From NCBI GenBank assembly GCA_944474755.1, contig OX104114.1:25691220-25755219 (forward strand): a stretch of DNA of 64,000 bases, given 5' to 3'. The position numbers were made by a program, and so were the translations under genes. Below, piece by piece: positions 45,956 through 53,514 of the stretch. Each line of letters begins with the position of its first letter. Positions within the stretch are counted from its first letter, which is position 1. The notes under the pieces are model-generated. The model saw only the letters and a list, made by a program, of their open reading frames with translations, was not told where the DNA came from and did no database searches. The stretch comes from Limnoperna fortunei (lineage: Eukaryota > Mollusca > Bivalvia > Mytilida > Modiolidae).

Positions 45956-46303
45956 ATGAAGTTAATAAATGATCATCCGTTTGATTCTGACATGTTAATG
46001 GATACAATTGTTATGTATCAGGAAAATGAACATTTTGAGAATTTGAATTGTTTTCATGAAGATGAAAATTTGGATACTCTTAATAGAGATGAACTTGTAA
46101 GGAGACTAGATAAAAGTTTTGACATTAAGCTTGAAAAAGTTATCAAAGTGTTAAAGAAAGACCTGGATCAGACTGACTTAGTAAACCTGACGCATTGTGC
46201 TATACATATAGCAAATCAAAAGTGTGGCCCTCAAAAAAGAAAGAAGCAGGAGGATAACGCAAACAAGTCAGGAGCAAAAAAAGGGAAAAATGATGAAGCA
46301 TCG
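45956..46303 (+). CDS. Shared leader exon of the retrotransposon (~116 codons)
   Basis: It starts at the first ATG after the left repeat. An acidic N-terminus (MKLINDHPFDSDMLMDTIVM, then NEHFENLNCFHEDENLD) is followed by a helical segment (RDELVRRLDKSFDIKLEKVI) and a very basic C-terminus (KKRKKQEDN-type and SGAKKGK motifs). The exon ends in phase 0 at a GTAAGC donor (46304). Without splicing the frame meets a stop at once (AGC AAT ACT TTA TGA). No domain is recognised; the acidic, helical then basic order could serve oligomerisation and nucleic-acid binding. The donor phase fits the acceptors at 48882, 50120 and 50767. Confidence 0.75.
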
Positions 46304-46461
46304 GTAAGCAATACTTTATGATGTTTTAGTTGAAAGAACTTAGAGTAAATAAGAAAATAAGATAAGCTGTTTTAAGATAGATGTAACAATATTGGTATAT
46401 TTATAATGGTTCAAAATACGGGAGACAGTGAATAACTTCAAATAACTCAGAGAGTTTGTAT

Positions 46462-46586
46462 TATTTATTTATTTATTTATTTATTTATTTATTTATTTAT
46501 TTATTTATTTATTTATTTATTTATTTATTTATTTATTTATTTATTTATTTATTTATTTATTTATTTATTTATTTATTTATTTATTT
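46462..46586. repeat. TTTA microsatellite, ~31 units
   Basis: 125 bp of nearly pure TTTA. The ORF reading through it (repeated YLFI) is an artefact. Confidence 0.97.
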
Positions 46587-50119: not shown

Positions 50120-50737
50120 AACTCTGATTTGAAGCAACAAATTCAGGAATTAAAAAACAGCTTGAGTGTTGATAATGTGGCTAACGCGTTGCGTGAAGTA
50201 AAGGAGTATGCTGCTAGGGCAAATGATATCAATATCGACACTTTGCAGATGAAATTAATGCATCTTGATGAGATGGGCAGGCGTTTTAATCACAGTGATA
50301 AGGAATTGTATTCGTTGGTCCTTCAACGTTTTCTATGTAACAAAGATCAGCCTCGCATTGGTCATTTAGTCACGTCGCTATTATGTTCTCCAGCAGAAGC
50401 TAAGGTGTATGAAAAGGAACAAAAATTCTTGAAATTACACGCTAATAAAGGAATTGATACGGAGCCCTCCAACTTTAATTTGGCGCCCAAAGTAGGAAAT
50501 GCACAGAAGAACACGCCGTCGTTCGATCAATTTGCAACAATGTTGCAATTTATGCAAAACTTTGTTTCACCTCATCAACAACCTATGCGTTTTTCAAGGC
50601 CACCAAGACCATTTTTCTTTCAGCAAAGGAGAGGGGTTAACCCCAATGTTAGGCCTCGCCCAGGTCCAAATTATTCCGGATGTCACATCTGCGGTGACGT
50701 GTCTCATTTCCAAGCAGACTGCCCACGTAGACAATAA
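50120..50737 (+). CDS. Gag-like protein with CCHC zinc knuckle
   Basis: It starts in phase 0 behind the acceptor CTTTTGTTTTAG (exon begins NSDLKQQIQELKNSLSVDNV); no ATG precedes the ORF, so it probably depends on splicing from the leader exon. A helical N-terminal two-thirds (coiled-coil-like LKQQIQELKNSL, then a DKELYSLVLQRFLCNKDQP region) is followed by a Pro/Phe/Arg-rich linker (RFSRPPRPFFFQQRR). A canonical C-x2-C-x4-H-x4-C knuckle (CHICGDVSHFQADC) sits 5 residues from the end. This is expected to be the RNA-binding structural protein of the element. The stop is 29 bp before the next acceptor. Confidence 0.88.
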   Translation, partial: NSDLKQQIQELKNSLSVDNVANALREVKEYAARANDINIDTLQMKLMHLDEMGRRFNHSDKELYSLVLQRFLCNKDQPRIGHLVTSLLCSPAEAKVYEKEQKFLKLHANKGIDTEPSNFNLAPKVGNAQKNTPSFDQFATMLQFMQNFVSPHQQPMRFSRPPRPFFFQQRRGVNPNVRPRPGPNYSGCHICGDVSHFQADCPRRQ

Positions 50738-50766
50738 CTTGTAAATTAAACTTGTTATCTTTACAG

Positions 50767-53514
50767 ATACCATTTTACTCACCTATGTTGCCTTTTCCAT
50801 GGGAGTTTCATGACCAGTTTTTGCCCTTGAAAGTTGAGAAACGTTCACAGACTCCAGTTTTAGTATCATTGGAAAGTGATGCAAACAGCTTAGAAACTGA
50901 CGATATGTTGAGTTTTGACCTTGATTTTAAATTAGATAATGTGCATGAATTATTATCAGAGCCATTTTTTGTATATAACCAGGATAACTTTGTAGCTGGC
51001 AATTTGCATCGTAACTTTACACAGTGGAACACCTTAATTACAAATTCTGAAAGTAATGTCCTAAAGTGGATTAAAAACGGTGTTGATATCAATGACTTCA
51101 TCCAACCATTTAATGGAGAATTCTGGGGTATACAGTATGACCATAAGTATCCACTGCCTAGACAATTTCAGAACGCCAAAAATTGCAAGGATTTTGTATA
51201 TTTCATTAATTCAGAACTTCAAGAAAGAGTCATTTCCGGTGCAATTTCTTGTGTAGGAAAAGTTGGAGAGGTTGCGCCACCTTACATCGTTTCACCAATA
51301 ACTATAGAACCGACCAAACCAAGATTGTGTATAAATCTTATGTACCTTAATTGTTTCATGATAGATACTCATTTTACCTTAGATACATTGTCAGAAGTCC
51401 CAAAGATTGTAAAGAAAAATAGTTTTCTTACTAAACTCGATGATAAATCAGGTTATGATAATGTTTTGATGTCAGAAAATTCTAAGAGTCTATTGGGCTT
51501 TCAATGGGGTGGTTATTATTTTCAATGTAATACATTACCATTTGGATGGAAAAACTCTGCTTTTGTTTATCATACAATAAATTTAGAAGCTGTTTCACGT
51601 TTACGACAAAAGTCCGTTTCATGCCTCCTGTACATTGATGATAGATTAATTGAAAAATTCAATGGATATTTACCACCGCAGTTAGACAATTCTACAACAC
51701 GTGCTAAAATAGCCATTAAATTAGCTGTAAAGTTATTTGTTAGTCTAGGATATTTTTTGAACATTGAAAAGTCTGTTTTAAAACCAACACAATCTTTAGT
51801 CTTTTTGGGAATGATTTTAGATACAGGAAAGATGTCGTTCTTTTTAACGGAGAAAAGAAAAGAAAAACTCAAAAATGTCAGAAAAATGATTTTACAGAAT
51901 AAGAAGGTACCAGTCGCTGTTATACAAAAATTCACAGGTTTGTGCATTTCAATGTGTTTGGCCATACCTGGGGCAAAGTTGTATACTTCTGTTTGTAATC
52001 AGGCGATTTCAAATGCAATAAAAAACTCTTCTGATATTATCATTGATGAAAAACTAAGGGAAGAAGTTCGGTTTTGGGAGTTTTTAGATTCATGGGATAA
52101 ACCTTTTCCTTGGGTACCAGACAGACATTTCACTCTAAAAGTCACATCTGATTCATCTGATTACAAATGGGCTTGTACTATTTCAGGTCCTAATTTGGAC
52201 CGAGTTTTTTCAGATTATTGGAATGACTCAATTATGTCAGCACCAATTATGATTAAGGAGGCTCTTGCTCTAAAAAACTCTTTATTGAGTGTTTCAAATG
52301 CTATAAGTAACAAGCGTATTGTTGCATATGTAGACAATCAGGCTGTGGTGTACGCCTGGGAAAATCAATACTCGAAGAATTATGATTTGGCAGCAATTAT
52401 GAAAGACATTTTTCAAATAATGATGGAAAATAATTGTACATTGACCCTGGTTTATGTACCCTCTTCTGAAAATCCAGCAGATCTTCCCTCGCGTACACTG
52501 TCCAAGTCAGACACAACAATTAGTAAACGCACATGGGCATATATAGAATACTTGTTCGGAAAACACGATGTTGACATGTTCGCCTTAGACAGCAATGCAA
52601 TGGTCGATTATAATGGTGTTACTTTAGAACATTTCACACCTATGGCGTCTCCCTTTTCAGCCGGTATTGATGCCTTTAGTCAATGTTATATAGTTGAGAA
52701 AAAATATTATGCTTTTCCTCCTTATTGCTTAATACCAGCTGTCATTAATTTTTTGATAGAGGAAAAAATCAACTGTACTTTAGTTTTTCCTCATTTTGTT
52801 CCCACTCCACCTTGGTTCCCTTTAGTTCTGAGATATGCATATATTGTAACTGTGGGTTTTCAAGGAGATAAAGGAGTTTTATTATTTCCTTCACGGAAAG
52901 GGTACCAAGTTGATAAGTGCGGACTACAATTTGATATGTTAGCAGCAAGGTTTAGTTTTGTAGACGAAAGAAGGAAGAACTTTTATCCTGATAAATTCAT
53001 GTCAATTAAACCCGATTATTTTTCTCCTGTTCTTTTGATAGGAGATTCAATGGTAAGATTTTTGGAGGGTTTCAGATTAGAAGTTTCTGTTATATCATTT
53101 GGGGGAGCAAGAATTAATGATGTATTTGGTATTTTGAAAAATGAATTGGAGAGATTATCAACTTTTGTTGTAATTATTCATATAGGGACAAATGATGTAA
53201 ACAAAGTTTATACACCTGTGAAAGATCAGCTAATATGCGTAAAAGAGGGATTAAGGTTCTTGTTTGAGAATATAAAACAATTACAAGTGAATCATGGATT
53301 TGCTGTAGTTTTTTCTGGATGTCTGTATACTAAATCCCCTATTATCAATGAACGTATTGATGAGTTGAATAAATATTTATATTCATTGTGTCGACAGTGC
53401 GAGTATTATTTCATTGATCATTCGAACATTCCTGTTCATTTTTTAAAAGATCAGGTTCACATGAATGCTATGGGAGAAAAGATGTTCTTGAATAATATGA
53501 AAGGGTTTGTTTAA
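50767..53514 (+). CDS. Reverse transcriptase-RNase H-SGNH hydrolase polyprotein
   Basis: It starts in phase 0 behind the acceptor TTATCTTTACAG (IPFYSPMLPFPWEFH) and is open for 915 codons. Residues below are numbered from a TTG five codons before the acceptor. RT: PRLCINLMYLN (190-200), motif A LDDKSGYD (229-236), TLPFGWKNS (261-269), catalytic YIDD (294-297) and LGYFLNIEKS (332-341). RNase H: SDSSD near 467, KEALAL near 503, VDNQAVV near 528 and ENPADLPSR near 574. A DIRS-type tail (HDVDMFAL) follows. The last ~160 residues form an SGNH hydrolase: GDS (764-766), FGGARIND, GTND (812-815) and D900-x-x-H903 (DQVH). All catalytic residues are present, so the protein looks active. Confidence 0.93.
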   Translation: MPFYSPMLPFPWEFHDQFLPLKVEKRSQTPVLVSLESDANSLETDDMLSFDLDFKLDNVHELLSEPFFVYNQDNFVAGNLHRNFTQWNTLITNSESNVLKWIKNGVDINDFIQPFNGEFWGIQYDHKYPLPRQFQNAKNCKDFVYFINSELQERVISGAISCVGKVGEVAPPYIVSPITIEPTKPRLCINLMYLNCFMIDTHFTLDTLSEVPKIVKKNSFLTKLDDKSGYDNVLMSENSKSLLGFQWGGYYFQCNTLPFGWKNSAFVYHTINLEAVSRLRQKSVSCLLYIDDRLIEKFNGYLPPQLDNSTTRAKIAIKLAVKLFVSLGYFLNIEKSVLKPTQSLVFLGMILDTGKMSFFLTEKRKEKLKNVRKMILQNKKVPVAVIQKFTGLCISMCLAIPGAKLYTSVCNQAISNAIKNSSDIIIDEKLREEVRFWEFLDSWDKPFPWVPDRHFTLKVTSDSSDYKWACTISGPNLDRVFSDYWNDSIMSAPIMIKEALALKNSLLSVSNAISNKRIVAYVDNQAVVYAWENQYSKNYDLAAIMKDIFQIMMENNCTLTLVYVPSSENPADLPSRTLSKSDTTISKRTWAYIEYLFGKHDVDMFALDSNAMVDYNGVTLEHFTPMASPFSAGIDAFSQCYIVEKKYYAFPPYCLIPAVINFLIEEKINCTLVFPHFVPTPPWFPLVLRYAYIVTVGFQGDKGVLLFPSRKGYQVDKCGLQFDMLAARFSFVDERRKNFYPDKFMSIKPDYFSPVLLIGDSMVRFLEGFRLEVSVISFGGARINDVFGILKNELERLSTFVVIIHIGTNDVNKVYTPVKDQLICVKEGLRFLFENIKQLQVNHGFAVVFSGCLYTKSPIINERIDELNKYLYSLCRQCEYYFIDHSNIPVHFLKDQVHMNAMGEKMFLNNMKGFV

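Follow-up and report, generated by a model that had tools for sequence, protein, structure and literature searches.

We analyzed a 64,000-nucleotide stretch of the genome of the bivalve Limnoperna fortunei (GenBank assembly GCA_944474755.1, contig OX104114.1, positions 25,691,220 to 25,755,219 of the forward strand), referred to here as the window, in whose own numbering all positions are given. It contains an apparently intact tyrosine-recombinase retrotransposon of ~9.6 kb in which one coding leader exon probably provides the start codon for three proteins, namely a recombinase, a Gag-like protein and a reverse transcriptase (RT). A single phase-0 donor at the end of the leader would be joined to one of three acceptors, giving nested mRNAs. 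There is good support for regarding the leader as a genuine coding exon that gives a start codon through splicing, because the leaders of Mytilus gene models are homologous to it, the coding stretches ahead of the first ATG are conserved in the recombinase and Gag, and the starts of the exons recur in relatives. We infer that this splicing takes place in cells, with the one donor joined to each of the three acceptors, and that splice choice sets the ratio of the products. The features on which the argument rests are as follows.

45956..46303 (+), leader exon, 116 aa, with an acidic N-terminal part, helical, a basic tail and a phase-0 end
46304..46309 (+), donor GTAAGC (donor matrix)
46304..48881 (+), putative intron ahead of the recombinase exon, 2,578 bp
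46862..47740 (+), 34-bp tandem array within the intron, limits approximate, with 13 donor-like GAG/GTAGG sites
48865..48881 (+), acceptor 1, score 4.87, ahead of the recombinase
48882..50078 (+), exon for an ALOG domain and tyrosine recombinase (PF04852, 2.4e-26; PF00589, 9.2e-11)
50103..50119 (+), acceptor 2, score 3.82, ahead of Gag; its TAG doubles as an in-frame stop
50120..50737 (+), Gag-like protein with a helical N-terminal part and a CCHC knuckle (zf-CCHC, E 0.032, below its cut-off)
50750..50766 (+), acceptor 3, score 5.52, ahead of RT
50767..53514 (+), RT, RNase H, linker and SGNH/GDSL hydrolase
50785..50787 (+), in-frame ATG of the RT open reading frame (ORF), codon 7, before the conserved WEF

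The gene order on the forward strand is thus leader, long intron-like stretch, ALOG recombinase, Gag and RT/RNase H/SGNH. An earlier note on this DNA had described a leader ending at a phase-0 GTAAGC donor, good phase-0 acceptors directly before the three downstream ORFs, and distances of 29-41 bp between the Gag and RT ORFs and the stop preceding each, and these observations were borne out. The leader ORF (45956-46303) comprises 116 codons, and its end at TCG/GTAAGC is in phase 0. Each downstream exon likewise begins in phase 0, at 48882 after CAG, at 50120 after TAG and at 50767 after CAG, and the gaps measure 41 bp (recombinase to Gag exon) and 29 bp (Gag to RT exon). Read past the leader without splicing, the frame continues for VSNTL and then meets a stop.

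Splice sites were scored with simple matrices of approximate, author-set frequencies, which covered 3,800 AG sites on the forward strand of the window. The donor at 46304 scored 4.03, in the top 1.1% of GT sites in the window, and acceptors 1, 2 and 3 fell in the top 1.1%, 1.8% and 0.7% of AG sites, respectively. Acceptors at least as good as the weakest of the three occur at 1.09 per kb. Taken stop to stop on both strands, the window has 22 ORFs that reach 120 aa; four of them have a phase-0 acceptor of such score within their first 60 nt, and three of these are the recombinase, Gag and RT. In our judgment, three in-phase acceptors exceed what chance would readily give. The fourth ORF (23958-25046, +, 362 aa) opens exactly at a phase-0 acceptor scoring 6.37 and has no Pfam match at E <=0.01. 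The putative intron (46304-48881) contains no further acceptor scoring at least 3.8, and no donor scoring at least 4 was found within the recombinase or Gag. Given that such donors are missing and that the gaps measure 41 and 29 bp, a single donor choosing among three acceptors appears to be the best fit for this copy.

The coding sequence ahead of the first ATG provides a second line of evidence. In the recombinase, the first in-frame ATG is at residue 44 (nt 49011), with 43 codons ahead of it, and residues 1-44 show 40-66% identity to the 11 homologues compared, with 50-60% over the remainder. In Gag, the TAG of the acceptor forms an in-frame stop immediately before the first codon and 43 codons without ATG follow; of residues 1-43, 24 of 40 aligned positions are identical to those of the Mytilus model P0062, as are 81 of 148 in the remainder. 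These conserved stretches look translated, and a start codon must therefore come from upstream. The earlier note had found no ATG near the start of either the Gag or the RT ORF, which holds for Gag, where residue 44 (nt 50249) is the earliest in-frame Met, but not for RT, whose ATG at 50785 is codon 7. The case for an upstream start codon is accordingly weaker for RT than for the recombinase and Gag. In the Mytilus models P0018 and P0113, however, the stretch from LSST through the conserved WEY of RT contains no Met, and the next Met lies 33 residues past that W.

Homologues were collected with three queries, the recombinase (61 proteins), residues 1-120 of P0018 (nine, including P0018 itself) and RT residues 1-500 (185, of which the best 120 were listed). 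Among the best 120 of the 185 RT matches, Mytilus and Pinctada were among the closest named animal homologues. Five RT homologues (P0076, P0093, P0094, P0117 and P0136) came from metagenome bins of Sedimenticola or Thiodiazotropha and are probably animal DNA binned with symbionts. Leader residues 1-90 are homologous to the N-termini of the Mytilus models P0018, P0062, P0063 and P0064 (30-34 of 81-82 aligned residues), and in all four the leader is joined to the recombinase just before [HP]TCDNC. P0018 carries an extra IFQQ at this join, the reading expected of an in-frame TTTCAGCAG (codons inferred). P0019 and P0068 begin inside the leader, and P0021 joins it deeper into the recombinase. The Gag part of P0018, P0063 and P0064 starts with TTQLK, at the position of NSDLK in the element, behind three different upstream stretches; in P0062 the Gag join falls two or three residues later. 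The RT parts of relatives begin 11-13 residues ahead of the conserved W, as judged by the change in sequence, and this distance is 11 in the element. The leader domain also occurs in Mytilus P0065, P0066 and P0067 with different downstream parts, including an nSTAND3 match (2.8e-08) in P0067; the element and host genes may have traded this exon.

Gene callers blind to introns extend ORFs back through an acceptor, and a phase-0 CAG after pyrimidines, as in acceptors of the TTYCAG type, then reads as F or L followed by Q. Among near homologues of the recombinase, FQ was present in 8 of the 10 with enough upstream ORF (20 of the 61 homologues examined, 10 dropped for short N-termini), a raw count. 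The two exceptions, P0020 and P0022, have a zinc-ribbon-like stretch in its place (CxxC...FCxxCG), and no such FCS-type zinc ribbon precedes ALOG in the window exon. In the wider recombinase set (61 given, 22 with motif and reach), [FLM]Q was found in 11 of 22. For RT, we used the best 120 of the 185 homologues and set aside 91 that had no anchored WE motif, then 10 of the other 29, in which the N-terminus was too short; [FL]Q occurred within 13 residues upstream of the conserved WE in 10 of the 19 left, compared with a background of 9.7% elsewhere in the same proteins (P 3e-6, which serves as a guide only because homologues share ancestry). In the nine RT matches that were long enough, F, L, S and P accounted for 55% of the residues preceding and including that Q, compared with 29% elsewhere. 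A count with a looser anchor (13 of 35, background 11%, P 5e-5) contained wrongly anchored rows and was replaced. From these readings, phase-0 acceptors ahead of the recombinase and RT look common in the wider group. Separately, six RT homologues (P0131, P0132, P0140, P0141, P0153 and P0156) have a basic, KRxK-like patch shortly before the conserved WE, the position where the element would carry the basic tail of its leader.

Several observations weigh against one leader serving all three ORFs. The Q signature is missing from 11 of 22 proteins of the wider recombinase set and from 9 of 19 RT homologues. Besides having an ATG at codon 7, RT is less conserved in residues 1-46 (20-41%, nine homologues) than in residues 47-400 (37-61%). 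A Met occurs at residue 11 in the recombinase part of Mytilus P0062, so the start-codon argument for the recombinase rests on this copy. Weaker donors, all in phase 0 by arithmetic, occur in the recombinase at 49203, 49650 and 49908 (3.06, 3.57 and 2.96). The recombinase acceptor is both nearest to the donor and stronger than that of Gag, and no excess of Gag is favoured by this arrangement itself. The Mytilus sequences read are gene models, and several of them chain the recombinase to Gag or RT. The proposal of the earlier note that a shared leader is spliced to three ORFs stands well for a coding leader that supplies a start, whereas a direct leader-Gag or leader-RT junction appears in no Mytilus model read.

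These chained models bring in the alternative that survives best, in which the exons are joined serially, from leader through recombinase and Gag to RT. The donors for these joins would lie within the recombinase and Gag or at their ends, and the products would be long fusion proteins. P0062 reads as leader-recombinase-Gag, P0018 and P0063 also include RT, and P0113 and P0021 join the recombinase to RT; the join in P0021 falls at about the position of 49908, one of the weak donors, three in number and all in phase 0, that the element's recombinase contains. However, the lack of any donor scoring at least 4 in the recombinase or Gag and the 41- and 29-bp gaps speak against such joins here, and the Mytilus models excise differing parts of domains (P0018, P0019, P0064 and P0068), as ab initio predictors do. 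We therefore consider serial joining unlikely.

Slightly less likely still is splicing that serves the recombinase only, while translation of Gag and RT relies on reinitiation, internal entry or non-AUG starts. The close spacing of the ORFs and the RT ATG at codon 7 would suit it, and reinitiation might account for RT in this copy, though scarcely for Gag, in which a stop stands right before the first conserved codon and is followed by 43 codons without ATG. The lack of Met between LSST and the WEY of RT in P0018 and P0113 also speaks against it, and the Q signature before RT in relatives would be left without a reason.

Trans-splicing of an unlinked leader onto the three acceptors would leave acceptors without an adjacent donor, but a linked, in-phase coding leader with Mytilus homologues is present, and we know of no spliced-leader trans-splicing in bivalves, which makes this very improbable. 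Coincidence in a decayed copy, with lost ORF starts and acceptors present by chance, is just as remote: a single DNA copy was seen and acceptors of such quality occur about once per kb, but the ORFs are open, the invariant residues of the recombinase are kept, the two A repeats do not differ at any position, and relatives show recurring exon starts.

Under the preferred reading, of one leader and three acceptors, a single pre-mRNA would start near the first terminal repeat (A1). Splicing of 46304 to 48882, 50120 or 50767 would yield leader-recombinase, leader-Gag or leader-RT, respectively, as nested mRNAs with a common 3' end. The unspliced RNA would serve as the genome, since its reading frame covers the leader, five further residues and a stop but not Gag or RT. 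Because acceptor 1, before the recombinase, lies closest to the donor and outscores that of Gag, an excess of Gag would need regulation or better translation. As a guess, the basic tail of the leader might aid nuclear entry. The predicted structure of the leader (predicted local distance difference test, pLDDT, 62) comprises four helices, modelled with modest confidence, and a tail modelled with low confidence that has a net charge of +4; this model had no PDB fold match at E <=0.001, and the leader profile had no match to PDB sequences at E <=1. The 13 donor-like sites of the 34-bp array outscore the real donor in the matrix used and count as one event because they belong to one repeated unit; that the array acts as a splicing decoy is speculation. 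The interior of Gag contains four more acceptors scoring at least 3.8, at 50394, 50397, 50624 and 50664. The one at 50624 (5.48), in phase 0 by arithmetic, precedes the Gag knuckle and could yield a leader-nucleocapsid form.

The element extends from the A1 repeat at 45837-45918 to the end of the second small repeat at 55419. Its ends and remaining noncoding parts contain the following features.

45837..45918 (+), A1 direct repeat, 82 bp, 100% identity with A2 (repeat comparison)
53515..54340 (+), 53-56-bp tandem array 3' of the RT stop, limits approximate
55098..55122 (+), B1 repeat, 25 columns, 92% identity with B2 (repeat comparison)
55159..55184 (+), perfect inverted repeat, 11-bp arms around AATA, possible core site of the recombinase
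55172..55253 (+), A2 direct repeat (repeat comparison)
55396..55419 (+), B2 repeat (repeat comparison)

The inverted repeat overlaps the start of A2 and could be a core site of the recombinase. The two outer edges of the element each carry a copy of a 13-bp direct repeat (45829-45841 and 55418-55430), which resembles a target duplication and is as such unexpected for a recombinase element. The array at 53515-54340 holds no splice-like site above threshold, and an Rfam scan of 45500-56500 gave no match. Within the window, blastn returned at least 40 matches, those listed falling in simple-repeat stretches, and tblastn of the four proteins of the element against the rest of the window gave a single match at E <=0.1 (21 leader residues, E 0.035). 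No relative was found in DNA in four scans of viral contigs and two of prokaryote genome contigs. When the recombinase was compared with plasmids by tblastn, 25 records matched; the 20 listed were bacterial, with 22-28% identity, and 19 of them were annotated as recombinases or integrases. Elsewhere in the window, the reverse strand at 57014-58957 encodes a RING protein with B-box and beta-propeller matches under their cut-offs, and ORFs with RING and propeller matches lie on the opposite strand at 37277-39308 (+).

The protein domains identify the type of element. In the recombinase exon, the ALOG domain PF04852 (2.4e-26) occupies residues 24-144, before the recombinase domain, and R205, H319, R322, H342 and Y354 are invariant across 22 aligned sequences; we take these to be the catalytic residues of the R...HxxR...H...Y motif of tyrosine recombinases. 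The Gag model (pLDDT 59) had no PDB fold match at E <=0.001. The RT protein of the window matches RVT_1 (1.4e-10). Its RNase H is weak (RVT_3, 0.093), and RNase H families match 9-10 of the 20 aligned homologues. The SGNH hydrolase matches Lipase_GDSL_2 at E 1.4e-05 with 26.1 bits, under the Pfam cut-off of 32.9, and 17 of the 20 aligned homologues match at E <=1. Positions 52534-52956 have no Pfam match and are a tentative candidate for a stretch like the methylase of DIRS elements.

With an RT, an RNase H and a tyrosine recombinase, the element has the hallmarks of the DIRS order. ALOG-type DIRS1-like retroposons are described from marine animals, including molluscs, and in Ectocarpus their length slightly exceeds 9 kb (Iyer and Aravind 2012, PMC3537659). 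As far as the text available from that source describes them, they share with our element an ALOG recombinase, a Zn-knuckle Gag, RT-RNase H and terminal direct repeats, and are characterized by RT upstream of the recombinase, an FCS zinc ribbon, an inactive adenine methylase and fast-diverging 5' ORFs (PMC3537659). In contrast, although ALOG likewise precedes the recombinase domain here, the recombinase (48882-50078) lies upstream rather than downstream of RT (50767-53514), the ribbon is absent, the putative leader would be spliced and an SGNH domain is attached to RT. A further homologue, P0186, is a single polyprotein with RT, a zinc-ribbon-like stretch and an ALOG recombinase in that order, and would be a useful outgroup.

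Ngaro elements, some of which likewise have an SGNH hydrolase, may also resemble it in their split-direct-repeat-like ends, but the parts of the literature available give the order gag, RT/RNase H, recombinase, with the hydrolase after the recombinase in amphibians, whereas here the order is recombinase, Gag, RT/RNase H/SGNH (PMC9210276, PMC8547959). Compared with the Ngaro repeat arrangement A1-ORFs-B1A2B2, the A repeats are 82 bp at 100%, the B repeats 25 columns at 92%, and B1 and A2 lie 49 bp apart. PAT elements may share split direct repeats and, in Pat1, a zinc-finger Gag, and Pat1-like elements occur in the mollusc Lottia; in the text available from the source, their recombinase follows an MT domain and no leader exon is mentioned (PMC4157794). 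The PAT features of our element amount to a zinc knuckle at E 0.032, partial repeats and a candidate MT stretch (52534-52956) without a Pfam match. We describe the element as a variant near the ALOG-type recombinase retrotransposons and not as an Ngaro or PAT element.

Splicing that supplies a start codon has a parallel in avian retroviruses, in which Env receives the start codon of Gag through a short coding leader exon, for one gene and not three; foamy viruses are not known to have a coding leader common to Pol and Gag. Introns may have been mentioned for some elements of the present kind, which could lower the novelty of the arrangement. In copia and BARE, a separate spliced RNA encodes Gag, but their full-length RNA encodes Gag too, as far as the source describes it, whereas the unspliced RNA of our element would encode the leader only (PMC3735527). 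Foamy virus Pol is described in the available part of the source as the product of a spliced mRNA that does not depend on Gag (PMC7828637). In the passages covered, a literature search returned no shared leader exon with three acceptors and no recombinase-first order; for these elements the papers cite Goodwin and Poulter (2004) as well as Poulter and Butler (2015). Splicing in retroelements is known from copia, BARE and foamy virus Pol, and one coding leader for three genes appears, as far as we searched, to be a new variation.

A wider proposal, which we put forward tentatively, is that in a mollusc lineage of ALOG-recombinase elements all three main proteins may come solely from spliced RNA through a shared leader and three acceptors, with unspliced RNA as genome only and splice choice replacing frameshifting. 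In this proposal the acceptors before the recombinase and RT would be old and widespread, and the leader would have been exchanged with host genes by the same donor logic. Retroelements have to balance genome-length RNA against much Gag and little enzyme; many do so by frameshifting, and copia, BARE and foamy viruses by means of a spliced RNA. If the arrangement described here is true, the element would be a natural test of splice choice as such a balancing device, with three products on one coding leader exon. It would also explain the headless ORFs of such elements, with three junctions as its sharp prediction.

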